Source of the DNA: a virus
Strand: one strand, 5' to 3'
DNA length: 30,157 bases
IMG/VR virus record: IMGVR_UViG_3300023176_005600
Coordinates: 1 to 30,157 of that record
The position numbers were made by a program, and so were the translations under genes. This document shows positions 2 to 17,016 of this stretch, one piece after another; within the stretch, counting starts at the first letter, position 1, and every line of letters starts with the position of its first letter. Below the pieces are notes generated by a model. The model saw only the letters and a program-made list of their open reading frames with translations, did not search any database and was not told the origin of the DNA.

Positions 2-538
2 TCAGGAACTTCAGGATCTTCAGGTTCATCAGGATCTAGTGGATCTTCAGGATCTTCAGGTTCCTCTGGATCATCAGGATCATCAGGATCGTCAGGTTCT
101 TCAGGTTCTTCAGGTTCTTCAGGTTCTTCAGGTTCTTCAGGCACGAGTGGATCTTCTGGATCTTCAGGATCGTCAGGTTCTTCTGGTTCTTCAGGTTCTT
201 CAGGATCTAGTGGTTCTTCTGGATCTTCAGGGTCAAGTGGATCTTCAGGATCTTCAGGTTCCTCAGGAACCTCAGGATCTAGCGGTTCTTCAGGATCTAG
301 TGGTTCTTCTGGATCTTCAGGGTCAAGTGGATCTTCAGGATCTTCAGGGTCTTCAGGAACATCAGGTTCTTCTGGATCTAGTGGTTCTTCTGGATCATCA
401 GGATCTTCAGGTTCTTCTGGTTCTTCTGGTTCATCAGGTTCTTCAGGTTCTTCAGGTTCCTCTGGTTCTTCAGGATCATCAGGTTCTTCAGGAACATCAG
501 GTTCTTCAGGATCTAGTGGTTCTTCCGGAACATCAGGT
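2..538 (+). repeat. Gly-Ser-Ser repeat tract 1
   Basis: In-frame run of Gly-Ser-Ser with occasional Gly-Thr-Ser triplets, built from 9-base DNA units such as tcaggttct and tcaggatct. Ser codons vary (TCA, TCT, TCC, TCG, AGT), so the DNA is imperfectly repeated while the protein pattern is strict. The tract continues off the left edge. Other-frame translations of this tract give artefactual Leu/Gln/Val-rich or Pro/Glu-rich ORFs. Confidence 0.95.
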
Positions 539-2494
539 ATTGATGGCACAAATTATTTAGGATTCTTTTCTGAATACGATTCAAGCAGTACGAACATTAC
601 AGTAGCACCATCATCCCAACAATTTGTATTAAATAATGCAAGCTTAAACAGTGTTACAGGTGCTGCGATTAGTACAACTTCTACTAATTCAGTAAATGTT
701 ACTAAGACGTTAGATATCTTCGATGAGATAGCAAACCCTGGTCCAAGAAGAGGAATTATACAGTTCTTAACCCCAGGAAATTCTCAATTTGCATCATATT
801 ATGTAACCAGTGCAACAAAAAATCCTCCAACTAATAGTTCATGGTTTCAACTAGATTTAAATTATATAGATAGAGGAGGAACAAACACACTTACAGGTGG
901 TGAAGATTATTGGGTAGGACTTAATGTAATTGGTGATGCAGGAACATCAGGATCTTCTGGATCGTCAGGCTCTAGTGGTTCTTCAGGTTCTTCAGGAACC
1001 TCAGGATCCTCAGGCTCTAGTGGTTCTTCTGGATCTAGTGGTTCTTCAGGCTCTAGTGGATCTTCGGGAACATCAGGCTCTAGTGGTTCTTCGGGATCAT
1101 CAGGATCATCAGGAATTTCTGGTACTTCAGGATATGTAATAGACAATACCTGGGATTGGACAACATCCGGAGGATCTCCAGCAAGTGGAGAAGCTAGAAA
1201 TAGCTCCGGATCTAATTTACCTGCATCACCCTTTGTCTTATTGATAAATGAAAACCCCATATCAGGACCTAATTATGTAAACATTTTTAATAGTTTAGGC
1301 AACGGAACCCTATGGAAAATAACGCGATTAGTTGGTGGATCTAACGTACTTTATTATACGCAAATCTCAGTTGGTGTTGATAACGGATCATATTGGGAAT
1401 TTGATTTAGATCATTTGTCAGGTACAGGATGGTCGCCTACTACAGGTGATGATATATTAATTCAAATTGCAGGAGTAGGAGCACCAGGAAGTTCTGGAAC
1501 ATCAGGTTCTTCTGGATCATCAGGCTCTAGTGGTTCCTCAGGATCTAGTGGTTCTTCAGGATCCTCAGGATCCTCAGGTTCTTCTGGATCATCAGGCTCT
1601 AGTGGTTCTTCTGGTTCATCAGGAACATCAGGATCGTCAGGCTCTAGTGGTTCCTCAGGATCTAGTGGTTCTTCAGGAACATCTGGTTCTTCTGGATCAT
1701 CAGGAAGTTCTGGTTCTTCTGGATCCTCAGGAAGTTCTGGTTCTTCTGGATCATCAGGAAGTTCTGGTGTTGGAGGTAGTGTAGATAGATTTAATGGGTA
1801 TGATGATGGTACTTTAAATGTAACTAATTTCTCTACCCAAGGTACCACAGCAGATATTAAAGTTTCGCATACACAATATGGTTTAGACCCTTCAACCAAC
1901 GCCTTAATTTACGATCATACGAATGATACTGCTCTTATTGAGATTCTGCAAGATGGATATTATATAATTAGCTCTAATGTAAATTACATTGTTGGAGCAA
2001 GTAGGAGTGGTTCTAGATCAACAATGCAGCAAAATCTCTATATTAATGGTGCTGTTGTAGATTCTTCTAAGTCTGATACTTACTCAAGAGGACAGCTTTA
2101 TAATGATGAAATTAATACGCTAACCACTGGTTATTTCTATTTAAATACGAATGATACTATAAGAATGGAGGTAAATGCAGCACGGATGGATAGTAGCGGT
2201 ACTGGAACTGTAGCGATCACTGATGCTGTTATTAATATTGCTCGGATATCAGGAGCAGCTGCTGCTTCTGGTTCTGACGGAGCACAGGGAGCAGCAGGAG
2301 CAGCAGGAGCACAAGGAGCACAAGGAGCAGCAGCAACAATTCCGTGTGATGGAACGTGTACATCTACTGAAGGTGGTAACCCAACATTGTACTACGGGAC
2401 TAATCCTGACGTTTATCTTGCAGAACCTAATGTGTGGTTCCGAATTGATTGTGATGGAACAACATATAACGTTCCTGGATACTCTTGTGAGTAA
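2..2494 (+). CDS. Collagen-like Gly-Ser/Thr-rich tail fibre or adhesin with C1q-like domain (5' end outside window)
   Basis: The reading frame is open from base 2 to the TAA at 2492-2494 (830 codons) with no stop, so the gene starts left of the window; a TTG at 1241 is only an internal codon. Layout in window codons: G-S-S/G-T-S tract 1-179, globular insert 180-313, second tract 314-377, second insert 378-495, third tract 496-589, a beta-rich domain 590-755, a short true collagen-type Gly-X-Y run 757-777, and a tip (778-830) with four Cys. The 590-755 region has the C1q/TNF-like pattern (GYYIISSNVNY, NLYINGAVV, then a strand after LNTNDTIRMEV). Collagen-like tracts of this kind form trimeric stalks in phage fibres, so a receptor-binding or decorating fibre is the natural reading. 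The Ser/Thr density and the glycosyltransferases downstream suggest O-glycosylation (inference). Exact virion location is unknown. Confidence 0.85.
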   Translation, partial: SGTSGSSGSSGSSGSSGSSGSSGSSGSSGSSGSSGSSGSSGSSGSSGTSGSSGSSGSSGSSGSSGSSGSSGSSGSSGSSGSSGSSGSSGTSGSSGSSGSSGSSGSSGSSGSSGSSGSSGTSGSSGSSGSSGSSGSSGSSGSSGSSGSSGSSGSSGSSGSSGSSGTSGSSGSSGSSGTSGIDGTNYLGFFSEYDSSSTNITVAPSSQQFVLNNASLNSVTGAAISTTSTNSVNVTKTLDIFDEIANPGPRRGIIQFLTPGNSQFASYYVTSATKNPPTNSSWFQLDLNYIDRGGTNTLTGGEDYWVGLNVIGDAGTSGSSGSSGSSGSSGSSGTSGSSGSSGSSGSSGSSGSSGSSGTSGSSGSSGSSGSSGISGTSGYVIDNTWDWTTSGGSPASGEARNSSGSNLPASPFVLLINENPISGPNYVNIFNSLGNGTLWKITRLVGGSNVLYYTQISVGVDNGSYWEFDLDHLSGTGWSPTTGDDILIQIAGVGAPGSSGTSGSSGSSGSSGSSGSSGSSGSSGSSGSSGSSGSSGSSGSSGTSGSSGSSGSSGSSGSSGTSGSSGSSGSSGSSGSSGSSGSSGSSGSSGVGGSVDRFNGYDDGTLNVTNFSTQGTTADIKVSHTQYGLDPSTNALIYDHTNDTALIEILQDGYYIISSNVNYIVGASRSGSRSTMQQNLYINGAVVDSSKSDTYSRGQLYNDEINTLTTGYFYLNTNDTIRMEVNAARMDSSGTGTVAITDAVINIARISGAAAASGSDGAQGAAGAAGAQGAQGAAATIPCDGTCTSTEGGNPTLYYGTNPDVYLAEPNVWFRIDCDGTTYNVPGYSCE
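941..1132 (+). repeat. Gly-Ser-Ser repeat tract 2
   Basis: Second Gly-Ser-Ser/Gly-Thr-Ser tract in the same frame, 64 codons, separating two globular inserts of the fibre. The DNA is close to that of tracts 1 and 3, so recombination between tracts could delete or swap the inserts. Confidence 0.95.
1487..1768 (+). repeat. Gly-Ser-Ser repeat tract 3
   Basis: Third Gly-Ser-Ser/Gly-Thr-Ser tract, 94 codons, leading into the C1q-like domain. Its final part shows a higher-order unit (ggaagttctggttcttct) repeated three times, suggesting recent expansion by slippage or unequal recombination. Confidence 0.95.
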
Positions 2495-2506
2495 TAGATT
2501 AATGCT

Positions 2507-2761
2507 ATGAAGGAAGTACCTAAGGTAGACATGTCACTTTTACAAATGGCCAATAATTTTGTTGGAGGTGAAGAAATTTCGAGAATTGAAATTATCAATA
2601 AGGAGGGTATTGTTTTAAATACATATGATTATTCCAAATCTACTGGTGATCATATTCCGAGTGTGATTTTTTCTATGTCCGATATTCTAGGTAATTCTAA
2701 TTCGATAGTTAGTAACCCCAATACAACTCAAAAGGTTAATGAATTCCCAGGATTACTTTAA
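2507..2761 (+). CDS. Small protein of unknown function
   Basis: 84 residues, ATG 13 bases after the fibre stop codon, in a different frame. No domain recognised. The protein has a central beta-type segment (ISRIEIINKEGIVLNTYDY) and no membrane segment or signal peptide. Position directly behind the fibre gene is where phages often encode fibre chaperones or small fibre accessory proteins, but nothing in the sequence proves this. No Shine-Dalgarno is visible; a second ATG at 2502 gives only a two-codon frame. Confidence 0.6.
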   Translation: MKEVPKVDMSLLQMANNFVGGEEISRIEIINKEGIVLNTYDYSKSTGDHIPSVIFSMSDILGNSNSIVSNPNTTQKVNEFPGLL

Positions 2762-2820
2762 ATAATTGAAAACCTTTGGATTGTTTGGCGTATAAGAATA
2801 AATCATTATTGTAATTCTAT

Positions 2821-3399
2821 ATGAAGGTCCAAACAATCATTATAGACGATTTCTATAAAAATCCCGATGATGTAAGATCATTTGCTTTAGCCCAAGAATT
2901 TAGTGCTCGTGGAAATTACCCCGGACAAAGAACGGTATCTTTTTTAGCAGATAACGTAAAGAATTCTATTCAGGATATAATTAGACCTTATGGCGGAGAG
3001 GTTACTTGGTGGGGTGATGATTCAACTGGGTCCTTTCAATATACAGTAGCTGCTGACAGATCCTGGATCCATAGCGATGACACAACAGATTGGGCAGGAG
3101 TTCTTTATTTAACACCAGATGCACCACTTTCTGCAGGTACTGGTCTTTTTAGGCATAAAGAAACTGGTCTTAATAGGTGGAGAAATTCTGAGCATCCTGA
3201 TGAGGTAGCTAAAGCAGCCCCTGTTAATATAGAATCCCAGGATATGACCAAATGGGAAATGGTTGATAAAATTGGAAATATTTATAATAGGCTGGTAATT
3301 TATCGGGGTGATTTATTTCACGTTTCTTTGGACTATTTCGGACTGGATAAAAATGACGGTAGGCTATTCCAGGTTTTCTTTTTCAACACGGAAAAATAA
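2821..3399 (+). CDS. 2OG-Fe(II) oxygenase-like protein (DUF6445 type)
   Basis: 192 residues. The 2-oxoglutarate/Fe(II) dioxygenase signature can be seen: His84-Ser-Asp86 (WIHSDD), a distal His167 (DLFHVS) and Arg181 (DGRLFQVFFF) for 2-oxoglutarate, on a pattern of strands typical of the double-stranded beta-helix (AGVLYLTPDAP, GTGLFRHKETG). This matches the DUF6445-type family from memory. These enzymes hydroxylate an unactivated carbon using 2-oxoglutarate, O2 and Fe(II); the substrate here is unknown. It lies between a collagen-like fibre gene and four glycosyltransferase-like genes, so modification of the fibre or of a sugar is plausible (inference). It ends at TAA one base before the next ATG. 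Confidence 0.75.
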   Translation: MKVQTIIIDDFYKNPDDVRSFALAQEFSARGNYPGQRTVSFLADNVKNSIQDIIRPYGGEVTWWGDDSTGSFQYTVAADRSWIHSDDTTDWAGVLYLTPDAPLSAGTGLFRHKETGLNRWRNSEHPDEVAKAAPVNIESQDMTKWEMVDKIGNIYNRLVIYRGDLFHVSLDYFGLDKNDGRLFQVFFFNTEK

Positions 3400-4698
3400 A
3401 TGCTAATTGTTAAAAGACCGACTGCTATTGTTTTTGGTTGGGATAAGCCTAGTGGCAATTATGAATTCGTTACCACAGTTTATTCTTCGGTAGAAAATAA
3501 CATGCAGTGGGTGAATTTGATTTCTATTGGCATAATTGATGTAGACAATAATGTACTATCGGATTTAAACATCAAACACACTCCTGATGTTTTCGTTTTT
3601 ATTGGTAGTAAGTATGATCAAATACATTCGCATTTTGATAGAATGGTTATAGAATACGATCAAATCCCAGATCCTGACACACTTGCTAATGATGTGGTGG
3701 TTAAGGCAGTAGACGTTCGTACAAACCCACACATTCCTCTTTTCAGCATTTTTACCCCTGCTTTCAAAACGGGGGAGAGAATATTTAGAACTTATCAAGG
3801 AATAGTAGATCAGAGTGAAACAGATTGGGAGTGGGTTGTTGTAGACGATTCGCCTTCAGACCATAACGACTTATGGCATGATCTTCAAAAGATAGCTTCC
3901 AGGGATTTAAGGGTTAAACCATATAGAATAACACCAAATACCGGGGGATTTGTAGGAATGGCTAAGAAGAGGGCCTGCTCTTTGTCTAGTGGTAAATGGT
4001 TGGTAGAACTTGACCATGATGACTATTTATTGGATAATTGCTTGGCTAAAATTAAATCTGCTAGCGATAAATTCCCTGACGCTGGATTCATTTACAGTGA
4101 CTGTACAGAAATGTTTGAGAATGGGAAATTTAGAAGATATGGTAGCAAAGATGAAAAATACGATGGTAATTTCTATGGTGTTGAAGGCAACAACTTTAAC
4201 TTTGGGTATTCTGGACACTCTTGGGTTAATATAAAGGGTAAAAGATATCTAACACATCACTATCCCTCTATAAATCCGATTACTATTAGATTTAATATTT
4301 CAATGCCAAATCATGTTAGGGCTTGGAGGTCTGATATTTATAAAAAAATCGGAGGGCATGCTGAAAGCCTACCAATAGCGGATGATCTAGAATTAATCAT
4401 TAAAACTTTTCTCGAAACAAGGATAGTCCATATTAAGGATTTGCTATATATTCAATATAGTAATGGCTCCGGGACTGTTAGCTATAACTCTTTCGAAATT
4501 AATAGAATTTCTAGAATTTTGAAAGAGAAATATAACAAAGCAATACATAACAGGATAATTGATTTGGGGTTCCATGATTGGGAGTGGGACGAAGAAAAGA
4601 GAACTAATAGGCACCAAGAGGCTATAATGAATAGTGACCTTAGTGATATAAAGTTCTGGGAGGATGAACAGGTTTTGAATTATGTATATGATGAATAA
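3400..4698 (+). CDS. GT2-family (GT-A) glycosyltransferase
   Basis: 432 residues. An N-terminal region of about 110 residues without recognised domain precedes a GT-A fold: FSIFTPAFKTGERIF (115-129) starting the Rossmann-like half, WVVVDDSPSD with the nucleotide-binding Asp pair (149-150), a DxD-type metal motif LDHDD (204-208), and ADDLEL (327-332) at the place of the usual catalytic acidic motif. Family GT2 enzymes move a sugar from a nucleotide-sugar to an acceptor with inversion; the acceptor is not predictable. No membrane segment, so probably cytosolic. Starts immediately after the oxygenase stop and overlaps the next gene by 17 bases, indicating translational coupling within one transcript. 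Confidence 0.85.
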   Translation: MLIVKRPTAIVFGWDKPSGNYEFVTTVYSSVENNMQWVNLISIGIIDVDNNVLSDLNIKHTPDVFVFIGSKYDQIHSHFDRMVIEYDQIPDPDTLANDVVVKAVDVRTNPHIPLFSIFTPAFKTGERIFRTYQGIVDQSETDWEWVVVDDSPSDHNDLWHDLQKIASRDLRVKPYRITPNTGGFVGMAKKRACSLSSGKWLVELDHDDYLLDNCLAKIKSASDKFPDAGFIYSDCTEMFENGKFRRYGSKDEKYDGNFYGVEGNNFNFGYSGHSWVNIKGKRYLTHHYPSINPITIRFNISMPNHVRAWRSDIYKKIGGHAESLPIADDLELIIKTFLETRIVHIKDLLYIQYSNGSGTVSYNSFEINRISRILKEKYNKAIHNRIIDLGFHDWEWDEEKRTNRHQEAIMNSDLSDIKFWEDEQVLNYVYDE

Positions 4699-5884
4699 GA
4701 GGGCTAAAATTTGCATGAATGCCATGGTAGCTAATGAATCCCGTGTTATTCTGAGAATGCTTGAATCCTGCTATCGATACATCGATTATTGGGTTATACA
4801 AGATAACGGCTCTACTGATGGTACCCAAGGTCTTATTAGAAATTTCTTTTCTCAAAAGGGGATACCTGGATACCTGTATGAAACTGAATGGCAATATCCT
4901 GGATTTAATCGGGATCACACTTTGCAAGAATGTTTAAAAGCTGATCATGGTTGTGATTGGATTTTAAGGATGGATGCAGATGAACAACTGGCTGTTGATG
5001 ATAATTTTGATTGGTCTTTGATTAACGACACATCTATTCAAAGTTTTAATATTACCGCTCAGGACCCGGGTGGAATATATTATAGAACTTGGCTTTGGAA
5101 TGCAAAATTGCCATGGTATTTCAAGCACGACAAAAGGCATGAGACAATTTATCTTTCTGGTCACAAAGAAGGGGAGGGTAATTTTCAGGTAATTAACTTA
5201 CCCCGTGGGTTTAGACATATCATTACAAATGACGGTAAAACTTGGGAAGACCCTTTAAAGTTTTTAAATGATGCTCTTTTACTTGAAGCTGATCAGGTTT
5301 GTTCTGGGAAGATAAAAGAGGATGATTACCATCTTTTCTATATTGGTAAAAGTTATGCTGATATTTATCAGAATGGAAATCTCCCGTTTGGCAAAAATCA
5401 TAGTGATGAATACGCTAGAAGGACTATATATTACCTTGAACATTATGTGAGAAGGAAATTTCCAGTTTATGATAATGACTCACCTCCTACAGTGTTTGAT
5501 GAGATGTGTTACCTTTCTATAGTTCTTATCGGACAAGCACATAGATTTATAGGAAATCGAGATCTCGCATATAAAAGGCTTGAACAAGCTGACTGGTATT
5601 GTCCGGATAGAAACGAGCACTGGGTTATTTTGGCAGAGATGCTCTTGGAGGACCAAAAATTTCATAGGATGTATGAAATAACATCAATGCTCATGAGAGA
5701 TGATAGGATATGCCCATTTCCTAGATTTCATTTTTTACTCTGGACCTCTTGTTACAAGGATACCTCTGATTATGTAGAATTTCTGTACAAAGAATCGATG
5801 AAATTTGTGGAACTAATTGAAACCCGAACAGACCAAAATAATTTAAAAACTATGGAAGACGCTTACTTTCCTGGTGAAATTTAG
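4682..5884 (+). CDS. SunS-like GT2 glycosyltransferase with helical-repeat C-terminus
   Basis: 400 residues. N-terminal GT-A domain with KICMNAMVANES (9-20), IQDNGSTDGTQG (39-50) and the metal motif RMDADEQL (96-103). The NGSTDGT block and the all-helical, TPR-looking second half (about 270-380, e.g. RLEQADWYCPDRNEHW) resemble the SunS-type group of GT2 enzymes, some of which glycosylate peptides on Cys, Ser or Thr. That makes a protein acceptor plausible, with the neighbouring fibre as candidate (inference). ATG at 4682 overlaps the previous gene; ATGs at 4688 and 4691 are equally possible starts since homology begins only around residue 8. Confidence 0.8.
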   Translation: MYMMNKRAKICMNAMVANESRVILRMLESCYRYIDYWVIQDNGSTDGTQGLIRNFFSQKGIPGYLYETEWQYPGFNRDHTLQECLKADHGCDWILRMDADEQLAVDDNFDWSLINDTSIQSFNITAQDPGGIYYRTWLWNAKLPWYFKHDKRHETIYLSGHKEGEGNFQVINLPRGFRHIITNDGKTWEDPLKFLNDALLLEADQVCSGKIKEDDYHLFYIGKSYADIYQNGNLPFGKNHSDEYARRTIYYLEHYVRRKFPVYDNDSPPTVFDEMCYLSIVLIGQAHRFIGNRDLAYKRLEQADWYCPDRNEHWVILAEMLLEDQKFHRMYEITSMLMRDDRICPFPRFHFLLWTSCYKDTSDYVEFLYKESMKFVELIETRTDQNNLKTMEDAYFPGEI

Positions 5885-5894
5885 ATAAAAACAT

Positions 5895-6170
5895 ATGGAA
5901 AACAATCAAACAAAAATAACATCTGAGGAGTTGGAAAAAATTAACTCCTTAAGAACCGAGATTTTAGAAAATGTTGAATCGATAGGTAGACTGAATATTA
6001 GAAAGCATTTTCTGGTAAAAGAACTCGAGCCAATAGAGGCAACTCTGATATCATTGCTTCAAAAGTCAGAAGAACTGGACACACAGGAGAAGGATGTAAT
6101 AGATGAGATCATTCAGAAATATGGGGAAGGCCAGTTAAATTTTGAAACTGGTATTTACACTAAAGAATAA
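5895..6170 (+). CDS. Small coiled-coil protein
   Basis: 91 residues, charged and almost wholly helical, with heptad-like Leu/Ile spacing from about 12 to 75 and a conserved-looking ending (IQKYGEGQLNFETGIY). Small phage proteins with a similar closing motif occur in other T4-like genomes as far as I recall, without known function. Lies between two glycosyltransferase genes and only three bases before the next ATG, so it is likely co-translated with the GT4 gene and could be its partner; this is inference. Confidence 0.65.
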   Translation: MENNQTKITSEELEKINSLRTEILENVESIGRLNIRKHFLVKELEPIEATLISLLQKSEELDTQEKDVIDEIIQKYGEGQLNFETGIYTKE

Positions 6171-6173
6171 TAA

Positions 6174-7226
6174 ATGAAAGAGATTGAGGCTTTAAGAAAA
6201 ACCAAATATGAATTGGTAAGAACAATCAATTCTATACAAAAAACATTGGATGAAAAAACCGGTGGAAAAAAGAGAATTCTTTTCGTTGCTCCACATCTTT
6301 CAACTGGAGGAATGCCTCAATACCTGTACAAAAAAATAGAGTCTTTTAACGAAGAAGCTGAAGTTTATTGCATACAATATAACAATACATCGGAGGAATA
6401 TGTTGTACAGAGAAATAGGATAAAGGAAAGGATTGGTTCTAGATTCCATTGTTTGGGGGAAGATAAGACAGAGATACTTGATTTAATTGATAGAATTTAC
6501 CCTGACGTTATCCATTTTGATGATTTTGTTGAATTTTTTGTAGACCCGTCGATTATTGACAAAATATATGCACTGGATAGACCATATTGCATAGTTGAAA
6601 CTTGCCACAGCTCAAATATTTCCCCATCAGATAAGATATATTGTCCGGATAAACTGGTTATGGTAAATCAATGGATGTGTAACAAATTTAAAGATCTTGG
6701 TGTTCCGACAGACATTTTAGAATACCCAATTGAGGATTTTAAAAGACCTGATAGAAAATCTGCCTTAGAGAGTCTTGGTCTAGATCCAAACAAAAAGCAT
6801 GTAATAAATATCGGTTTATTCACACCAGGTAAAAACCAAGGTGAGCTTATAGAGCACGCTAGAAATCTCATTGACTACCCAATACAATTTCACTTTATAG
6901 GAAATACTGCACCAAATTTTCAAAGCTATTGGGAACCACTTTTAGAAACACTACCTGATAATTGCAAATTATGGGGTGAAAGAGATGATGCGGATCTTTT
7001 CTATAGTGCGGCTGACCTTTTTGTTTTTACCTCTAATTGGGAGTTAAATCCCATTGTTATAAAGGAGACTCTTTCATGGAAACTACCGATTTTAATGAGA
7101 AGACTTGATCCATACATGGATTCTTATGATCAGAATCCATTGGTAAGCTATCTTAGCCCTAGCGGTGCTTTTTTAGATATACCTGCAGATACGGAAAAAA
7201 TTAAGGACATATTAGATTTAAGATGA
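6174..7226 (+). CDS. GT4-family (GT-B) glycosyltransferase with N-terminal coiled coil
   Basis: 350 residues. The first 30 residues form a charged helix, followed by a GT-B fold: RILFVAPHLSTGGMPQYL (34-51) with the glycine-rich loop, the linker into the second domain at NIGLFTPGKNQGEL (212-225, the usual G-K motif that contacts the diphosphate), and an EX7E motif Glu290/Glu298 (ELNPIVIKE) typical of retaining GT4 enzymes. About 350 residues is normal for the family. No membrane helix. It overlaps the next gene by four bases (ATGA at 7223-7226), indicating coupled translation. Substrate unknown. Confidence 0.85.
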   Translation: MKEIEALRKTKYELVRTINSIQKTLDEKTGGKKRILFVAPHLSTGGMPQYLYKKIESFNEEAEVYCIQYNNTSEEYVVQRNRIKERIGSRFHCLGEDKTEILDLIDRIYPDVIHFDDFVEFFVDPSIIDKIYALDRPYCIVETCHSSNISPSDKIYCPDKLVMVNQWMCNKFKDLGVPTDILEYPIEDFKRPDRKSALESLGLDPNKKHVINIGLFTPGKNQGELIEHARNLIDYPIQFHFIGNTAPNFQSYWEPLLETLPDNCKLWGERDDADLFYSAADLFVFTSNWELNPIVIKETLSWKLPILMRRLDPYMDSYDQNPLVSYLSPSGAFLDIPADTEKIKDILDLR

Positions 7227-8404
7227 AAAATAGAGGCTTAAAAGTTTATGAGAGCTTAAAAAAAGCGGACTTTGTAAGGTTTAGACACCCCTACACTTTT
7301 GAACTTACTTTTGATAATGGTGCTAATGTTGATTGCATAGGACCAAATAATGCTAAACCTTGTACAATAAAGTTCATGGATTTAAGTACTGGTACATATG
7401 GGTATACAGGTGAAATTTCTGCTGGACTTTTTACAAGGCTTTATAGAAAATGGTTTACTCCTTGGAGATTAGAGGCTTACGATAATGATGAATTAATCTA
7501 CCAGAGAGATCTGGAAGACGTAATTAGTGAGGAAAAAGTTTGTATTAGTGTTGATAGCAACTCACTTGGTGACACTCTAGCTTGGATGCCCGTCATAGAA
7601 AAATTCAGAAGAAAATATGACTGTGACCTCTATGTTACTACATTTTGGAATGAGCTTCTTGCTAACTATTATCCTTCCATAAGGTTTAGATCACCCGGGT
7701 CAAGAGAGATCAATACAAAAATTACATTTGGTGTGGGGTGGTATGACGAGAATGACCGCGATAGACATAGGAGGGATCCTAGAGCTATTTCGTTACAGCA
7801 GGTTGCTGGGGATATTTTAGGAATAGATGTTGAAGGTGACCTATTAAACGAAAGTGTACCACTAACAATACAAAACACAAACTCAACTATTGACGGAAAG
7901 TATGTGTGTTTGGCTATGGATTCTACCGCTAATGCTAAACATTGGCACTATGAGGACGGCTGGCAGAAGATTACCGATTATTTAAATTCAATAGGTTATA
8001 AGGTTGTTGTTGTACAAAAGCAGGGAACAAATTTAAATGGAGTGATTGACAAAACTGGAGATATTGATATTTTACAAAGAGCCATTGACATTTATCACTC
8101 CGATTTCTTTATTGGAATAGGGTCTGGTCTAAGCTGGCTTGCTTGGTCACTACACAAGCCAGTTGTAATGATATCTGGTTTTTCGGATCCCGCGTGTGAA
8201 TTTTCTACTAAAAACTATAGAATCATAAACCGCGATGTCTGCCATGGTTGCTTTAGTGATACCTCAATAAAATTTGATAAGGGGGATTGGAATTGGTGTC
8301 CGAGGTTAAAGGATACCGAAAGGATGTTTGAATGTACAAAAACAATTACCCCAGAGGTTGTTCAAACCTATATCGACGATCTGATACAAAATCACCTATC
8401 TTAA
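7223..8404 (+). CDS. Aah/TibC-like protein O-heptosyltransferase (GT-B, iron-finger cysteines)
   Basis: 393 residues. The second half carries the unusual signature of bacterial autotransporter heptosyltransferases: Cys340-x2-Cys343 (DVCHGCF), Cys359 (GDWNWCP) and Cys371 (MFECTKTIT), which in TibC coordinate an iron. Upstream are a GT-B core with SLGDTLAWMP (114-123; the Asp of GDT is at the place of the catalytic Asp reported for TibC, from memory), ACEF/SGFSDP and IGIGSGLSWLAWSLHKPVV (297-315), the GT9-like nucleotide-sugar pocket. The N-terminal 100 residues look beta-rich, like the barrel of TibC. Known relatives put heptose from ADP-heptose on Ser residues of autotransporter adhesins; here the obvious Ser-rich acceptor is the fibre at the left end (inference). 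Which sugar is used cannot be read from sequence. Confidence 0.8.
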   Translation: MKNRGLKVYESLKKADFVRFRHPYTFELTFDNGANVDCIGPNNAKPCTIKFMDLSTGTYGYTGEISAGLFTRLYRKWFTPWRLEAYDNDELIYQRDLEDVISEEKVCISVDSNSLGDTLAWMPVIEKFRRKYDCDLYVTTFWNELLANYYPSIRFRSPGSREINTKITFGVGWYDENDRDRHRRDPRAISLQQVAGDILGIDVEGDLLNESVPLTIQNTNSTIDGKYVCLAMDSTANAKHWHYEDGWQKITDYLNSIGYKVVVVQKQGTNLNGVIDKTGDIDILQRAIDIYHSDFFIGIGSGLSWLAWSLHKPVVMISGFSDPACEFSTKNYRIINRDVCHGCFSDTSIKFDKGDWNWCPRLKDTERMFECTKTITPEVVQTYIDDLIQNHLS

Positions 8405-8421
8405 CCTCTTTTATTTCTACG

Positions 8422-8429
8422 GATATATA
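8422..8429 (+). promoter_or_regulatory. Late promoter-like box GATATATA before the neck gene
   Basis: Exact match to the octamer found before several virion genes in this window, 44 bases upstream of ATG 8474. Resembles the T4 late box TATAAATA, recognised by gp55, whose gene is at 29629. The sequence from here to ACCGAG (8439-8444) is alignable with that following the box at 13633. Confidence 0.6.
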
Positions 8430-8473: not shown

Positions 8474-11029
8474 ATGGCTTTTTACCCAGAAAATAGATTT
8501 CCAAAAAAAGGTATCCCCGTTTATAACGGCAACGGCGATCAGAGGGATCTTTCGGATCCTAGATTTAGATACCAAGACAATTTGGAGAATACTACCAAGG
8601 TTTTTCACCAGAGTACAGATAACTATTTTGGAACCACTGGAGCTGCTATGGCACGTGCTGAGCAACTTGGTTGTAATGGTTATCACACAGCTCTTGCTGA
8701 CGATGGGGTTTACTATTACTTACCATGTTCTGATGCTACCTGGTATGCTGAAAGAATACAGCAATTCGAAAGCTCATTAAATTTCACATACATAGGTAAT
8801 TATAGGGTTCTCACTTGGGATAGCCCATTTAACTATGTACAAGCCTTCAATGGGTGGATAATAGAAACAGCAGGTGCTGTTTTGGGTGATCCTGTAAATC
8901 TTGGTGATCCAACAGCAGCTATTCCAAATGACATTGCAATTGATTTTAGATATTCTGTTGACGGGAAAAGTTGGTCCCTTTGGGCTAATGTTGGAACTGC
9001 ATTAACTGGATTTTCTCAGGGTTATACCTCCAACAACGATTCGACAATCTTCTCAATTCCGCTTGATCCTTCAAAATCATTTTACCCGGAATTTAGATTT
9101 ACTTCCGTTGTAGTAAATACGGACGGAACACTGGCTTATGAGACAGATGAACCTATAGATCCTTCAATAGTAATCCTTGATTTCGATCTTGATCTTACCT
9201 ATGCTACTGGACCTAGTGGACCTTCTGGTTCAATAGATAACTTGGTTATTAATAGACCTGTACCAAATTGCTCTAATGAGAAGTCAAACAGACCAGTTGT
9301 TTTTGATGATTGCAACTACACTTTTAATCCCTATGCAATAAACAAGGCTGTTAACCTGTATAAGGATTTAAGCTTGGTTGTAAACAAGGTATTTGGGTTT
9401 GAGACAAATTATTATTCAGTGCAACCACAAGCTAGAGGTAAAGACGTAGTGTTGAAGGAGTATACTTTATTTGATGTTGTAGATGAACAATGTGTGAAGG
9501 TAATGGTTCCTTCAAATCAATTTCCAGATAACCGAACAAATTATGATCCCTTCGGAATCCAGTTTGACGAACCGTTCGAGATTCATATAGATAAGACCTA
9601 TTTCGAAAACATTTTTGGAAGAGGCTCACAACCAAGGAAGAGAGATATTATTTACTTCCCTTTAACCAATAGGATCTATGAAATAAATTCTACCTACTTG
9701 TTCAGGGATTTCATGTATTCTCCGGTTTACTACAAAATAGAGCTTAAAAAATATAGTCCTAAGTCTAATACGTATTTCAAAGACCCTGCTTACAAAGAGG
9801 AATTAGATGGAATTGCACTTACTACAGAAAAGCTATTTGGTGCAGAGGTTGAAGCTGAAGAGCAAAAAATAGCTAAGCCAGAGCAATACTCCGATAGTAC
9901 GCAAAGAAGACAAGAGGACCCAACCAGGTCTTATATCTATAAGAATCTTCCTATAGTTGGGTATGATCTCAATAACAACTGGACAATAGTGTTTAACAAC
10001 TACTACGATATGTCGGATGCTTTTGTTTCTGATTCAGAATTCGTATATCAGCCTAACAAGTATCGAGAAGCACTTAGGTATAAAAACAGACCTCTATTGG
10101 AGAGCGATGGTGAGGTATCCTACACCTGTTGGTTTAGTTTGAAGAACTATATTAATGAGGATAGCTTGGCTAAAAAACCATACTCTCCAGCACCAATCAC
10201 AAAAGTCTCAGAGGATGCTAACCAAATTTTATACAGCTCTCACCCATATAAACACAATTTAACCCCATTTAGGCAATTTTCGGATAACCCGGAAGGGTAT
10301 GTTGCAATTAGTACTGATGCTAACCATTCGGGAGGATTCAAGGTTCTAACTACTCCTGATGAGTTTAAATTTTCTGTTGCAAATCCAAATCTTCCTTATG
10401 CTAAGAATACTGCAAATTGGAAAATGCAAAAGGCACAAGCAAGGAATCTAATTGATGGAACCTATATCGATGGCTCTGGTTTGTTAAAAGGCATGAGGAT
10501 AGACTTAGTGCATTCTGGTACCAACGATGCTGCAAATAATAATTATGTACAACAAGGAAGCATTGAGATTATCTTAAACGATCTTACGTATGATTCCAGA
10601 TTGCAATTTACTCCAGAGCAGGGAGAGTGGTATGGATTGGTTGTTAATATAAGTAACAAGTATAAGCAGATGGGAATTAACATCTGGAAAATGTCGTATG
10701 ATCCAACAAATCCAGGTGCACAACAATCATCAGATTTAGTTAAAGTGCACGAAGATTATAGGACGTTAACCAAATCTTACATTTTTGATGCTCCCTCTGA
10801 TATTGAGACAAACGTAAACAACCCATTCTATGGGACGGATAATAACGCTTACAAGATTTACACATCCCCGCTCCTTTTATCGAATGTAAGACTGTTTAAG
10901 AACATGATAGATATTGATAAACAATCAATTGTCCTTAACCAGAACACTGTAAGGGATGAACAACTAGCATATATTATAGATAACGCTAAACCACAATTGA
11001 TCCTACCTAAATTCGCAAGAAATAGGTAA
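8474..11029 (+). CDS. gp14: Large neck protein with gp14-like domain
   Basis: 851 residues. The central part (about 285-440) reads like T4 neck protein gp14: FNPYAINKAVN, then YYSVQPQARGKD, YDPFGIQFDEPFEIHI, KRDIIYFPLTNRIYEIN and YYKIELKKYSPKSN, all in the order seen in gp14. It also has a 240-residue N-terminal region rich in beta and aromatic residues, a short collagen-like hinge (TGPSGPSGS, 245-253), and a C-terminal half that looks lectin- or LamG-like (GEWYGLVVNISNKYKQMGIN). T4 gp14 has about 256 residues, so this is a neck module with large additions, possibly forming whiskers or a collar decoration. gp14 joins head and tail with gp13. Next in order are gp16 and gp17, as in T4, which supports the call. 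Confidence 0.65.
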   Translation: MAFYPENRFPKKGIPVYNGNGDQRDLSDPRFRYQDNLENTTKVFHQSTDNYFGTTGAAMARAEQLGCNGYHTALADDGVYYYLPCSDATWYAERIQQFESSLNFTYIGNYRVLTWDSPFNYVQAFNGWIIETAGAVLGDPVNLGDPTAAIPNDIAIDFRYSVDGKSWSLWANVGTALTGFSQGYTSNNDSTIFSIPLDPSKSFYPEFRFTSVVVNTDGTLAYETDEPIDPSIVILDFDLDLTYATGPSGPSGSIDNLVINRPVPNCSNEKSNRPVVFDDCNYTFNPYAINKAVNLYKDLSLVVNKVFGFETNYYSVQPQARGKDVVLKEYTLFDVVDEQCVKVMVPSNQFPDNRTNYDPFGIQFDEPFEIHIDKTYFENIFGRGSQPRKRDIIYFPLTNRIYEINSTYLFRDFMYSPVYYKIELKKYSPKSNTYFKDPAYKEELDGIALTTEKLFGAEVEAEEQKIAKPEQYSDSTQRRQEDPTRSYIYKNLPIVGYDLNNNWTIVFNNYYDMSDAFVSDSEFVYQPNKYREALRYKNRPLLESDGEVSYTCWFSLKNYINEDSLAKKPYSPAPITKVSEDANQILYSSHPYKHNLTPFRQFSDNPEGYVAISTDANHSGGFKVLTTPDEFKFSVANPNLPYAKNTANWKMQKAQARNLIDGTYIDGSGLLKGMRIDLVHSGTNDAANNNYVQQGSIEIILNDLTYDSRLQFTPEQGEWYGLVVNISNKYKQMGINIWKMSYDPTNPGAQQSSDLVKVHEDYRTLTKSYIFDAPSDIETNVNNPFYGTDNNAYKIYTSPLLLSNVRLFKNMIDIDKQSIVLNQNTVRDEQLAYIIDNAKPQLILPKFARNR

Positions 11030-11819: not shown

Positions 11820-13616
11820 ATGGCCGAAAAAGAAGAGAAAGATTCCAATTACTGGAGTACCAAAAGAATAGAGGAACTTCTATTTAGGGTTGAAGAGGAG
11901 GGGCTTGATTACAAGTCTGTTGATAACCCCTTTCATGATGGTGACCCAGAGCTTAAGATGTCAAATCTTTTGTATGAGTATACACAAGACGAGATTTTAG
12001 AGATGGAAAGATGCGCAAAAGATGTTGTTTATTTTTCTAAGTACTGTAGGGTCATGACTGATGACGGTCTTTTTTATGTAAAACTTCGTGACTACCAAGA
12101 ATCAGTTCTCCGTGAGTATCAAGCTAATAGATTTAATATATTTTTAGCACCTAGACAGGTTGGAAAATCAATTACTTCAGCTATTGTCCTTGTTTGGTAT
12201 CTTCTTTTCAATCACGATAAAAATGCAATGATCTTAGCAAACGTTGGTTCTACTGCAGAAGAACTGATGGATAAGATCAAAGCAATAGTAAGAGGTCTGC
12301 CGTGGTTCTTAAAACCTGGTATGGTAGTAAACAATGTGATGTCTATGAAGTTTGATAACGGGTGTAGAGCAATTGCAAAAACTACTACAAAAACATCCGC
12401 AATTGGTTTTACAATTCACTTTCTTTATATGGACGAATTTGCTCATATCCACCCAAATTTTATAGAATCGTTTTTTAGATCAACATATCCTACAGTATCT
12501 TCTTCTAAGGTTTCTAGAATTATTATTACATCAACCCCAAATGGAATGAATAAATTCTATGAAATTTATAAAGGTGCTGTTGATGGTGAAAATAGCTTTA
12601 ATCCTATAAGGGTTGATTGGTGGCAAGTTCCCGGAAGGGACGAAGAATGGAAAAAACAAGAAATCGCTAACCTAGGTTCTCAAGAATTGTTTAATCAGGA
12701 ATACGGCAACCAGTTTTTAAGTTCCTCTACATTGCTTCTAGGATCTAACGAGCTTAAAAAAATTAAAGCAAACGAGGTTGAATATGAATGGAGGGACATT
12801 GATGTTCTAGAGGATGTTGGACTTCCGTATGACAATTTTAGATGGCATCCAAAATTCAGTTTGAATACTGATACTCTTTTCAATAATAGATTTGTTATTT
12901 CGATTGACTTAGCTGGTGGCGGAAAGGGGGATTTTACAGTTCTTAATATTTTTAAGGTGGTACCTCTGCCAAAAAAAGTAATAGAGGCCATGGATGATTT
13001 CCAAGATGAGTCTGACTTTTTCGGGCTTCTACAGGTTGGCATTTATAGGGATAATGAAATTGAGGTTGAGGATTTTAAAAAAATCCTCGAAGCCTTGGTT
13101 GTTAAGTTCTTCAATCCAGAAAATGTAAGGGTACTTTTAGAGATTAACTTTAAAGGTGAATTGCTTATAGACAAGCTCATTTTAAATGACGACTTTCCTC
13201 TCGAAATCTTTGTACACACAAAGCACACAGAATCTGCTAGGACGAGAAAGCCTGGTATAAAGTACAACGAGAAAAACAAGATGAAATACTGTGAGATTCT
13301 TAGATCTCAGATGAGGATGAATAGGGTAATAATAAACGAATCTACTTGGACTGTACCTGAGTTATTCTCTTTCGGTCTTAACACTAGGGGAACTTATTCA
13401 AGTCAATCTGGACACGATGATGTAGCAATGACGATTGTAAATCTTTCTGGGATGTTTGAATCATCCGATTTTTATGATCTTGTTGGTGAATTGTATGATG
13501 AGCTTGGTGAATCTACCTACCGGGATCTTATAGATCTAAAGATGGAAGAAAATAGTGAGGATGGAGCATCAACCAAAGAGGGAGGGTTCTATAGCTCTTT
13601 CAGTCAGTTGCTCTAA
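11820..13616 (+). CDS. gp17: Terminase large subunit (packaging ATPase-nuclease)
   Basis: 598 residues, close to T4 gp17 (610). ATPase half: Walker A APRQVGKS (110-117), Walker B LYMDEF (202-207), coupling motif TSTPNG (238-242). Nuclease half of RNase H fold: Asp363 in SIDLAGGGKGDFT, Glu441 in LLEINFKG and Asp533-Asp534 in GHDDVAMT, matching the three acidic residues of gp17. It powers DNA translocation into the prohead and cuts the concatemer. Position after the gp16-like gene and before the sheath follows T4 order. All catalytic positions are present, so it should be active. Starts with ATG two bases after the previous stop. Confidence 0.95.
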   Translation: MAEKEEKDSNYWSTKRIEELLFRVEEEGLDYKSVDNPFHDGDPELKMSNLLYEYTQDEILEMERCAKDVVYFSKYCRVMTDDGLFYVKLRDYQESVLREYQANRFNIFLAPRQVGKSITSAIVLVWYLLFNHDKNAMILANVGSTAEELMDKIKAIVRGLPWFLKPGMVVNNVMSMKFDNGCRAIAKTTTKTSAIGFTIHFLYMDEFAHIHPNFIESFFRSTYPTVSSSKVSRIIITSTPNGMNKFYEIYKGAVDGENSFNPIRVDWWQVPGRDEEWKKQEIANLGSQELFNQEYGNQFLSSSTLLLGSNELKKIKANEVEYEWRDIDVLEDVGLPYDNFRWHPKFSLNTDTLFNNRFVISIDLAGGGKGDFTVLNIFKVVPLPKKVIEAMDDFQDESDFFGLLQVGIYRDNEIEVEDFKKILEALVVKFFNPENVRVLLEINFKGELLIDKLILNDDFPLEIFVHTKHTESARTRKPGIKYNEKNKMKYCEILRSQMRMNRVIINESTWTVPELFSFGLNTRGTYSSQSGHDDVAMTIVNLSGMFESSDFYDLVGELYDELGESTYRDLIDLKMEENSEDGASTKEGGFYSSFSQLL

Positions 13617-16700: not shown

Positions 16701-17016
16701 CCTTCTCATCAGTGTTGAGAATGACGTTGAAGAGATCATGGCTAACTACCTATTTGATTTCAATGAAGATTCTATAAGACTAGAGATCAAAACCCTTGTA
16801 GATAACTACTTAGATGGAGTTAGAGCTGGTGGTGGTATTTATGCTTACCAAGTAATCATGGATTCTTCTAACAACCCTCCTTCTATTATCGATCAGAACA
16901 TCGGTATTATTGATGTAATTATCGAACCTGCTAGAGGTATTCAGAAGTTCATAAACAGAATTACTGTTACAAGAACTGGTGGTATCGCTGCTGGAGGATT
17001 TATCCAATTCGCTTAA
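13720..17016 (+). CDS. gp18: Contractile tail sheath protein
   Basis: 1098 residues. The start (SQFKASGVYTLEFDASEN, then TIRLVVGFSNKGPFNAPVYL) and the end (VHVRDLLISVENDVEEIM, IDVIIEPARGIQKFINRITV) are characteristic of phage tail sheath proteins, whose N- and C-terminal arms interlink neighbouring subunits. It polymerises around the tube and contracts at infection. T4 gp18 has 659 residues; the extra length here is in the middle (about 330-700), Gly/Ser/Thr-rich and beta-like, probably one or more inserted surface domains. Position after the terminase and before the tube genes is the T4 order. The gene is preceded by two candidate late boxes, as expected of a highly expressed virion gene. 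Confidence 0.93.
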   Translation: MAKKIKLDLSQFKASGVYTLEFDASENVILTSQTIRLVVGFSNKGPFNAPVYLPDVTTAVAIFGDIDKTLEAKGSYFHRSIFACLNTGPVFALNLLNLNNDIDSPTADVVNYFGYSIDTEQSNGVLTSRLYSSFYNKERFWFADTDYFLATLSAVDTGRLFNLVNLGKEAISVIVRKSTDAVQPLQGYDVFALDWYGADNVPSFMHPYDYISDYFIDVISVSGDWTDYETLSLDPKWSSYFTRNGFIKSQINNFLSQPDVNIVTSTTGCLIPDFVDLNGNNQYIQTLINNNTPSTGLFCAVDEDAMDDICTNPYKIDLVGHHLIDELTADRDIVDARLNFLSYDQNLTADYLYSQNVTTITDAATGASGSSPDSINVGTLLTIGATSTYGVGATAFDGYDPSLKYGGLHYVVTNSGVTGASLTTAEKNELVSFATPSATSSPYIMGRVTGLSGLTGSVINQFSENDLVKLRVSGVIQTGGEVLLTWTHPLDTASYSAQGVSVTPYSNMVGATSGNISADYYQFASSDYLDITSVSSVTGGTASNALTGQLSTAFYQDLLYGELEDGDQIWLNETGSSINYISYESTIDRDQFAVAYARQFDNVARQNPDNLVDYTAFSTGLPGSKPFASDNIGLPVAAGKTDIVTSVGSINQFIDVITQIDPTNFTISSSPSSPISVGDLIVSTDQDICETVGSNRQYRLTRVTSVAQTTTPNVVQVTTARPLYYYAGSPIQVQKFKSIPQFTRSFDFTYLNGFTMRDSHRPNGTDARVSELLDVMYNTNIAATLAAKDVISFRYIVDTFSGQILPNSKYQLSKLAMMRQKALALINAPSMEQFRESTDPRFTDAPTQTNPYPSLKAQYISEGGNLSLNPSYTFSLPTEDQGAKYAAFYTPYLTVRENNRNVNVPPAAYISNNFVRKFANGEPYSIIAGQKRGVISGQNLVGLEYDFTDEDRGWLEPVGLNPIIKKRGLGVVVFGNQTAYQTVNSAFNLVHVRDLLISVENDVEEIMANYLFDFNEDSIRLEIKTLVDNYLDGVRAGGGIYAYQVIMDSSNNPPSIIDQNIGIIDVIIEPARGIQKFINRITVTRTGGIAAGGFIQFA

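Follow-up and report, generated by a model that had tools for sequence, protein, structure and literature searches.

A candidate fibre-glycosylation module with a TibC-type enzyme in a T4-like phage

Glycosyltransferases of phages are mostly credited with acting on DNA or on the surface of the host cell. On bacterial spores, the BclA filament carries an O-glycosylated collagen-like Gly-X-Y tract, there with GPT repeats, rhamnose-based glycans, and enzymes other than those considered here. TibC transfers heptose to serine of a protein and recognises a beta-helix (PMC4358343). Among viruses, virion proteins of mycobacteriophages carry glycans (Freeman et al. 2023, as cited in PMC12619734), and Mimivirus L230 is a collagen lysyl hydroxylase/glucosyltransferase (PMC9614988).

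We analysed a window of 30,157 nucleotides (the whole stretch of DNA studied; IMG/VR record IMGVR_UViG_3300023176_005600, positions 1 to 30,157), which represents part of the genome of a T4-like phage (Table 1). The original prediction had described a fibre with three long tracts followed by five enzymes on one strand, with overlaps of 17 and 4 bases. The ORF listing of the window places all island genes on the plus strand at the coordinates given earlier, with GT2a and GT2b overlapping at 4682-4698 and GT4 and GT9 at 7223-7226; the 84- and 91-aa ORFs had been absent from the earlier list. Family profiles bore out the labels for both GT2 enzymes, GT4, and the TibC-like enzyme. The 2OG-Fe(II) oxygenase label stands on fold and cyanophage annotation and not on Pfam, which returns DUF6445 rather than a 2OG family. 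The glycosyltransferase genes adjoin structural genes, being flanked by the fibre on one side and by the neck and terminase genes on the other, and the nearby terminase large subunit shows that the island belongs to a region of late structural genes.

Table 1. Features of the island and its neighbours (window coordinates).
Feature	Position	Strand	Remarks
Collagen-like fibre, 3' part of gene	2..2494	+	5' end cut by window; three long Gly-Ser/Thr-Ser tracts, non-repeat domains in between, Cys-bearing C-terminal domain; proposed glycan acceptor
84-aa ORF, no assigned function	2507..2761	+	Variable among relatives
Fe(II)/2OG-oxygenase-fold protein (DUF6445, phrog_1644)	2821..3399	+	Proposed modifier of glycan or fibre
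GT2a, GT2-family glycosyltransferase	3400..4698	+	Variable cassette; PF00535 1e-10
GT2b, GT2-family glycosyltransferase	4682..5884	+	Variable cassette; PF13704 6e-7, PF00535 1e-5
91-aa ORF	5895..6170	+	Conserved core together with GT4 and GT9
GT4-family glycosyltransferase	6174..7226	+	PF00534 2e-10; proposed extender of first sugar
GT9, predicted TibC/AAH-family (TIGR04414) protein O-glycosyltransferase	7223..8404	+	PF01075 7e-6; TIGR04414 279.5 bits
Neck protein (T4_neck-protein / head closure Hc2)	8474..11029	+	3' neighbour of island in close lineage
Terminase large subunit (T4-like)	11820..13616	+	

The fibre matches the Pfam Collagen family (PF01391, 1e-49) through Gly-X-Y runs of 61, 23, 34, and 7 triplets. 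The three long runs together comprise 118 triplets, 97 of them GSS and 13 GTS; threonine occurs in the X position only, and the Y position is serine in 111 of 125 cases. Codons for Gly and Ser differ synonymously, so the repeat is maintained at the protein level. Proline is nearly absent from these tracts (one triplet), and in three fibres the tracts hold 0 or 1 triplets with lysine or proline. The full fibre is longer than the copy in the window, reaching 1440 aa in contig G001 from the same phage and 2033 aa in a relative, both with the 5' end still open. Gly-Ser/Thr tracts are present in many uncultured viral contigs, where they seem to break assemblies, and we know of no role assigned to them.

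We consider it probable that the phage O-glycosylates its own fibre and that the island is a fibre-glycosylation module. GT9 would add the first sugar, probably heptose taken from the ADP-heptose of the host, to hydroxyls of Ser/Thr in the neighbouring fibre's Gly-Ser/Thr-Ser tracts, in the host cytosol and before or during assembly. GT4 would lengthen the glycan from this first sugar, and a swappable cassette would complete it: here GT2a, GT2b, and the 2OG-fold protein, elsewhere sulfotransferases, FkbM methyltransferases, or GT25 enzymes. The outcome would be a proline-poor Gly-X-Y rod on the virion, sheathed in sugar. Such decoration may, as the original prediction suggested, stiffen the stalk, keep proteases off, or alter the host range.

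Two other explanations are each unlikely in our estimate. Once infection is under way, the enzymes might alter the LPS or capsule on the host surface and thereby exclude competitor phages, as has been proposed for pelagimyophage glycosyltransferases, the adjacency to the fibre then reflecting a hypervariable host-recognition region; or they might glycosylate a different virion protein, such as the neck, the capsid, or a second fibre, with the GSS tract as a bystander frequent in the same aquatic phages. The evidence bearing on these and on glycosylation of the neighbouring fibre is given together below.

The TIGR04414 score of GT9 exceeds the cut-off of 200, as did all 26 records searched, each of which had been chosen for having a GT9 relative. 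Against TibC, phmmer gives E 1e-57, and the predicted model of GT9 (pLDDT 88.6) matches TibC across 357 residues, the N-terminal barrel among them, with Z 38.5. The LPS heptosyltransferases and a further GT9 protein reach only Z 19-21 (19-20 for the LPS enzymes, whose match begins only at model residue 104). Sequence and model together assign GT9 to the TibC-family protein O-glycosyltransferases, and a core enzyme from a protein O-heptosyltransferase family, far nearer to TibC than to the LPS enzymes, speaks against modification of the host surface. TibC has Asp-110 as catalytic base and Thr-226, Lys-230, Trp-305, and Arg-286 at the donor site (PMC4358343). D117, T235, K239, and W305 are the equivalents in the window, each invariant in 47/47 viral clusters; R286 aligns with TibC Arg-286 in a column outside the conserved set of the viral family. 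The iron finger (CxxC-x15-C-x11-C) has the spacing of TibC Cys 339/342/358/370, and alignment finds its four cysteines in 47/47 viral clusters, which were collected partly via a seed within this loop; a motif search on extracted regions gave 46/47. The catalytic Asp, Lys, and Trp and the four cysteines are identical across these clusters and across the bacterial loci with a usable GT9 region (65 of 80).

The viral enzymes differ in the thumb stretch, which has 36-38 residues in 39 of the 47 clusters, 35 in one, and 41-42 in seven, versus 46 in 58/65 bacterial relatives. The thumb hairpin in the window is nine residues shorter than in those 58, and in the TibC alignment the hydrophobic tip (TibC Phe-265, Val-266) is missing. 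The autotransporter target repeat TIGR04415 was found in none of the 26 records, which are mostly fragments, with a positive E. coli control. Nor does any of these records hold the heptose-synthesis adenylyltransferase TIGR02199 over cut-off (four weak matches lie below it). On these 26 records, we rejected a phage-encoded ADP-heptose supply; the donor would come from the host, or a different sugar would be used. TibC recognises a beta-helix, and one would not expect a GSS tract to fold in that way, a point against the fibre as acceptor. A report of a phage TibC-type enzyme was not found in the partial body of papers covered.

Taken jointly, these features would allow a broader reading, in which a glycan sheath made by phage enzymes covers the virions of many large aquatic phages. 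A TibC-type enzyme with a shortened thumb would have exchanged autotransporter beta-helices for Gly-Ser/Thr-Ser fibres as its target and would prime between hundreds and more than a thousand Ser/Thr sites on each chain. The outer sugars would vary with a swapped cassette of additional transferases, a 2OG oxygenase, a sulfotransferase, and a methyltransferase, and glycans instead of hydroxyproline would stiffen and mask the proline-poor collagen-like rod. We hold this joint reading tentatively, as close to evenly balanced and leaning slightly against.

The original prediction had drawn an analogy with bacterial adhesins encoded beside their glycosylating enzymes and had suggested a search for co-occurrence in related phages. 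Among the matches listed, TIGR04414 was found in 22/50 GSS-drawn viral contigs (21 over cut-off) and in 0/44 GPx-drawn ones (p 6e-8), and in 16/42 versus 0/39 when restricted to contigs of 24-120 kb. In its essentials the analogy held up: the gene at the end of the island belongs to the TibC family, and co-occurrence with GSS tracts is far above the GPx control among the matches listed. The association, being with GSS and not GPx tracts, argues against both alternatives introduced above. The pattern scans returned at least 120 stretches, about 80 of which were listed. The GSS sample comprised 50 of the 58 contigs of at least 20 kb among the matches listed, without the eight smallest, the second locus of one contig, and contig L201 (found by both patterns); the GPx sample comprised the 44 such contigs, also without L201. 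One GSS-drawn contig (G019) had previously been found through GT9 too. At 70/79 GSS-drawn loci among the matches listed, an ORF encodes the tract as a repeat of the protein. Median G+C is 0.49 in the GPx sample and 0.39 in the GSS sample (among the matches listed), and the GPx control contigs may stem from other phage kinds. No TIGR04414 gene was seen in 28/50 GSS contigs among the matches listed, a point against glycosylation of the fibre; the contigs are fragments.

Starting from the enzyme, a GSS tract lies in the examined flank of 26/43 viral GT9 clusters versus 2/80 bacterial loci (p 4e-13). Those two loci, L669 and L670, are the two closest matches and L669 has a thumb of viral length, so both may be phage contigs. 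Counting against the fibre, an uninterrupted six-triplet tract is missing from 5/26 enzyme-bearing records, including Microcystis phage Mel-JY01, a sequenced phage with a named host in which the enzyme lies near a GTS-rich reading frame. A comparison built on the Mel-JY01 terminase gave mostly short contigs and was left out of the tables.

The original prediction named, as grounds for refuting it, the occurrence of the enzymes in relatives without any Ser/Thr-rich fibre, and this was found only in part. Six neck-gene contigs of this lineage (L164, L167, L168, L170, L172, and L182, with L167, L168, and L172 near-identical) carry all five enzymes beside a fibre whose visible part is mostly GAQ, which would suit another virion protein as the acceptor. 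All six begin within the fibre gene; five show 1-6 GSSGTSG islands, which favours the fibre, and L172 has none in its 103 visible fibre residues. The 84-aa ORF recurs at 33-37% in five GAQ-type contigs. In an independent T4-like sample, the GT9 gene was found over cut-off in 2/19 tract-free contigs, and in 4/19 at E up to 0.001, including two marginal matches of 12-14 bits. This contrast with the GSS sample is weak (p 0.02 and 0.10, respectively), and the enzyme in tract-free contigs again suits another virion protein. The sample drew on 50 of at least 120 terminase stretches (24 listed and 26 unlisted), and the tract scan covered the 20 in contigs of at least 24 kb.

Within 16 contigs, GT9 was no closer to the tract than random positions (mean quantile 0.40, combined p 0.19); it lay within 10 kb in 11 of them. 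The test took 16 of the 22 positive contigs, leaving out six larger ones (121-548 kb). We therefore rejected adjacency as general proof. The missing proximity signal would fit modification either of the host surface or of another virion protein. In the lineage of the window, the 91-aa ORF, GT4, and GT9 form a core that keeps its place next to the neck and fibre genes at GT9 identities as low as 53%, which argues against another virion protein, and the overlap of GT9 with GT4 amid late structural genes argues against the host surface.

Enzymes of the GT2 and GT4 families typically serve to build LPS and capsules, a point in favour of host-surface modification. In PDB sequence searches, GT2a found distant polysaccharide and GlcNAc transferases only, and GT4 had no match at E 0.01. 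GT2b weakly matches a peptide S-glycosyltransferase model (E 0.009). GT4 is fused in frame directly N-terminal of the GT9 enzyme in 17/22 enzyme-positive GSS contigs among the matches listed. As a general marker of GSS phages GT4 was rejected, with 4/28 TIGR04414-free GSS contigs (two sub-cut-off) versus 8/44 GPx contigs (one sub-cut-off) carrying it among the matches listed. The predicted 2OG model (mean pLDDT only 68) has the double-stranded beta-helix fold and resembles prolyl hydroxylases of the PHD2 type (Z 12.4 across 150 residues, rmsd 3.4). H84, D86, H167, and R181 are candidates for the HxD...H metal triad and the 2OG-binding Arg; in homologues L173 and L174 (43-46%), one or all of the triad residues are missing. 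Collagen-type Pro/Lys hydroxylation was set aside as its role because the tracts hold hardly any Pro or Lys. In favour of host-surface modification, a 2OG homologue sits in a large sugar-synthesis cluster in Synechococcus phage Sf-FS3, and glycosyltransferases in the host-recognition region of pelagimyophages have been interpreted as acting on the host surface (PMC7029224). Glycans on mycobacteriophage capsids and tail tubes (cited in PMC12619734) would in turn be a precedent for another virion protein. Hypermodification of DNA, with the glycosyltransferases acting on modified bases of the phage genome, is a recognised role of such enzymes (PMC10202952, PMC12619734) and would suit a 2OG oxygenase fold, but it is very improbable given a TibC homologue, genes among structural genes, and relatives whose equivalent setting includes sulfotransferases and FkbM methyltransferases.

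Returning to glycosylation of the fibre, large aquatic bacterial viruses appear, from their gene content, to carry their own enzymes for attaching sugar to a long serine-rich fibre. If the module acts in this way, it would provide a testable substrate and a first enzyme for a large phage group, extend the TibC family beyond autotransporters, and suggest how a Gly-X-Y rod functions with almost no proline.

Several known systems come close to the proposed module. In cyanophage and pelagimyophage host-recognition regions, sugar enzymes lie between fibre genes, as they do here (PMC7029224). In Synechococcus phage DSL-LC02, a collagen-like protein and a tail fibre flank a 2OG homologue, an FkbM protein, and a mannosyltransferase; tblastn found no TibC-type enzyme in it or in other cyanophage records except Mel-JY01. 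Mycobacteriophage glycans sit on the C-termini of capsid and tail tube subunits (PMC12619734), whereas here a repeat fibre and a TibC-type enzyme are proposed. Mimivirus likewise encodes collagen-like proteins and a glycosylating enzyme with a hydroxylase domain (PMC9614988); L230, however, modifies lysine and is a different transferase, and the tracts here are virtually without Lys or Pro. With TibC and AAH, whose partners are TibA and AIDA-I, GT9 shares the fold, N-terminal barrel, iron finger, and catalytic residues, and in both cases the substrate, which for GT9 is a proposal, is a surface protein with long repeats. The bacterial autotransporter heptosyltransferases form a dodecameric ring and transfer heptose from ADP-heptose to serine. 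GT9 is encoded by a virus, has a shortened thumb stretch, and comes with the autotransporter target repeat in 0/26 records; its proposed partner is a Gly-Ser/Thr-Ser fibre, and it is fused to or overlaps a GT4 enzyme and is accompanied by further sugar modifiers.

The genes that the original prediction described (a Gly-X-Y fibre, a 2OG protein, the glycosyltransferases GT2a, GT2b and GT4, and a TibC-like enzyme, GT9) lie where it had placed them in the window, with overlaps of 17 and 4 bases. The last of them, GT9, is a member of the sequence family TIGR04414 (autotransporter O-heptosyltransferases), scoring above the curated cut-off, an assignment narrower than the label "glycosyltransferase family 9." Its alignment with E. 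coli TibC covers 338 residues (1e-57). When the predicted structure (pLDDT 88.6) is superposed on TibC, the match extends over 357 residues with Z 38.5 and takes in the N-terminal barrel. The next-best proteins, a Veillonella GT9, E. coli heptosyltransferase II, and WaaC, reached Z 19-21.

We compared GT9 with its viral relatives, represented by the best 80 viral loci, the window, and three public phage records (84 regions, 47 clusters), and used the functional residues of TibC named in PMC4358343 as a checklist. The base D117, together with T235, K239, and W305, is invariant in 47/47 viral clusters, as are the iron-finger cysteines C340, C343, C359, and C371, whose conservation is partly ascertained because some viral relatives were found via seeds within the iron-finger loop. 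Arg-286 is present in the window GT9 and is not conserved across the viral family. The thumb stretch, which builds a ring in TibC, is shorter in most viral clusters: it spans 36-38 residues in 39/47, 35 in one, and 41-42 in seven, compared with 46 residues in 58 of 65 bacterial relatives. The family's canonical autotransporter target repeat, TIGR04415, was found in 0/26 records, with a positive E. coli control. GT9 thus has TibC's fold and catalytic site but probably acts on another acceptor. We do not class it as a true bacterial autotransporter heptosyltransferase (BAHT), since checks for two features of that functional family came out negative.

The original prediction had proposed a search for co-occurrence of the enzymes with GSS-tract fibres, and at the contig level the result is positive. 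Fifty viral contigs were drawn among the matches listed by their GSS tract alone and then searched for TIGR04414, which was present in 22 (21 over the cut-off), versus 0 of 44 control contigs drawn by a GPx tract among the matches listed (Fisher p 6e-8); for contigs within 24-120 kb, the counts among the matches listed were 16/42 and 0/39. Of 50 contigs taken from at least 120 stretches matching a T4-like terminase motif, five had TIGR04414 at E up to 0.001, three of them over the cut-off. Twenty of these contigs are 24 kb or longer. The single one with a GSS tract is TIGR04414-positive, and the enzyme occurs in two of the 19 without a tract over the cut-off and in four at E up to 0.001. The contrast between the GSS set and these 19 is weak, at p 0.02 and 0.10, respectively. 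The converse search, starting from the enzyme, found a GSS tract in 21 of 26 large records and the reversed pattern in none, and a GSS tract lies in the examined flank of 26/43 viral GT9 clusters vs 2/80 bacterial loci. A distance test on 16 of these 22 contigs spoke against simple adjacency: compared with random positions, the enzyme showed no excess of closeness to a tract (mean quantile 0.40, combined p 0.19), and the link is therefore one at the contig level; the distance is within 10 kb in 11 of the 16. Tight adjacency of enzyme and fibre characterizes the window's lineage, along with some others.

A second association concerns GT4. Directly N-terminal of the TIGR04414 domain, 17 of the 22 positive contigs encode a GT4 domain in the same frame, and the window's GT4 and GT9 genes overlap by four bases; this arrangement supports joint action of GT4 and the TibC-type enzyme. 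A phmmer search for relatives of the window's GT4 was positive in 11 of the 16 contigs examined. GT4 enrichment was not found in GSS contigs without TIGR04414.

Many viral GT9 regions lie within proteins of 700-1600 residues that also contain GT4, FkbM methyltransferase, GT25, or DXD-type sugar-transferase domains. A search of 50,697 public phage records gave four matches to GT9 at E 1e-5. One is Microcystis phage Mel-JY01 (locus L193), in which the relative (7279-8427) forms the end of a 1227-aa protein that the annotation calls an FkbM methyltransferase. The triplet-rich frame near it (see the table) has no uninterrupted six-triplet GSS/GTS run and is not called whole in the deposited annotation, where minus-strand hypothetical genes cover most of it. 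The other three are huge-phage records, two of them sharing one match at identical coordinates. In the record of 735 kb, the GT9 protein, a GT4 protein, and a collagen ORF of GSS type are neighbours, and the record of 636 kb yielded no GSS tract. The closest "bacterial" GT9 matches are MAG contigs of Schekmanbacteria (L669) and Arenicellales (L670) with GSS tracts nearby, L669 having a thumb of viral length; both are perhaps phage contigs binned into MAGs. Two contigs carry tandem TIGR04414 copies (G007:16025-17906 and G112:4622-6558), one copy of each pair being weaker, with a stop codon counted within the match.

Around the window, 34 loci were collected via the neck gene. Wherever the contig extends far enough, the neck gene is preceded by the core (91-aa ORF, GT4, and GT9), and a Gly-X-Y fibre lies farther upstream in contigs that are long enough. 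The two exceptions both have neck identity under 60%: one locus (L188) has its GT genes on the opposite strand, and the other (L192) has, over the 4.3 kb before its neck gene, other phage genes and no island. In locus L173, no 91-aa ORF was detected. Fibre and core are separated by a set of genes that differs among relatives, with 2OG, GT2a, and GT2b as the window type. One locus (L177) has a sulfotransferase and a GT2, plus an RCC1-like protein, and a 230-kb contig (G013), whose fibre also starts with a GSS tract, has a GT4 and a sulfotransferase. The sulfotransferases in the GT2/2OG cassette position suggest that some relatives may make sulfated glycans. In six loci (L164, L167, L168, L170, L172, and L182), GAQ makes up most of the visible fibre, which has 0-6 GSSGTSG islands (L172 having none), and all five enzymes are retained.

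Positions of additional features in the window and in related loci
Feature	Location	Strand	Basis or match
Sheath-like protein, unusually large (1098 aa)	window 13720-17016		presumed from size and gene order
Two tandem tube-like proteins after the sheath-like gene	window 17066-17620, 17638-18216		presumed from size and gene order
1200-1600-residue proteins, one chain with varied mixes of GT4, FkbM methyltransferase, GT25 or DXD transferase and TibC-type domains	L037:6668-11023, L065:7340-12139, L052:4748-9505, L193:4747-8430		
GTS/GTD/GSS-rich reading frame, 1016 aa, open at record start, near the Mel-JY01 enzyme	L193:2-3052	+	
RCC1-like repeat phage protein in cassette region	L177:2756-4003		PF25390, E 2e-59
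Sulfotransferase genes in GT2/2OG cassette position	L749:7705-8523 (G013), L177:4003-5808		

The window is an IMG/VR fragment of 30,157 bases. Profile matches mark its terminase and neck genes as T4-like, and the three best matches of the terminase in public phage records come from uncultured huge phages (37-39% identity). The fibre gene is truncated by the left edge of the window, and its visible part has three long tracts of 61, 23, and 34 Gly-X-Y triplets; 110 of these 118 triplets are GSS or GTS, and their codons vary synonymously. The fibre reaches at least 1440 aa in a 107-kb contig of the same phage and at least 2033 aa, with 611 triplets, in a relative. No complete 5' end of the fibre gene was seen among relatives of the window's lineage. 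The window and many contigs among loci L159-L190 start within fibre repeat tracts, and the repeat seems to break assembly. After the third tract, fibre residues about 630-756 (window 1890-2270) form what we take, by eye, to resemble a C1q/TNF-type trimer domain; the region had no Pfam match at E 0.1.

The model of the window's 2OG protein has a PHD2/P4H fold (Z 12.4; pLDDT 68), and the protein retains a plausible HxD...H motif and Arg, part or all of which is lost in its homologues in loci L173 and L174. Hydroxylation of the tracts by this protein, as in animal collagen, is unlikely because Pro and Lys are almost absent from them; the protein may act on a sugar or elsewhere. In Synechococcus phage DSL-LC02, a homologue annotated as FkbM, a mannosyltransferase, and another FkbM enzyme lie between collagen-like and tail fibre genes, and in phage Sf-FS3 a homologue lies within a sugar-synthesis cluster.

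The proposal that the phage decorates its own fibre with sugars is partly supported and becomes more specific: the last gene is a TIGR04414 enzyme and the GSS link holds at the contig level, though proximity within contigs showed no excess. Judging from these genes and domains, the island is probably a form of virion glycosylation with a retargeted TibC-type enzyme. We infer the order in which GT9 and GT4 would act. In the most likely sequence, host ADP-heptose or another sugar donor would serve GT9 in priming Ser/Thr of the fibre, GT4 would extend this first sugar, the cassette enzymes would complete the glycan, and the fibre would be assembled afterwards.

In the animal Riftia, a proline-poor collagen is held by galactosyl-threonine. 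Neither a phage TibC-type enzyme nor phage fibre glycosylation of the proposed kind was found among the open-licence PMC papers listed, an absence that is not proof. Parts of the mechanism have precedents in published work: TibC glycosylates autotransporters (PMC4358343), mimivirus L230 acts on collagen-like proteins (PMC9614988), and mycobacteriophage virions are glycosylated (as cited in PMC12619734).
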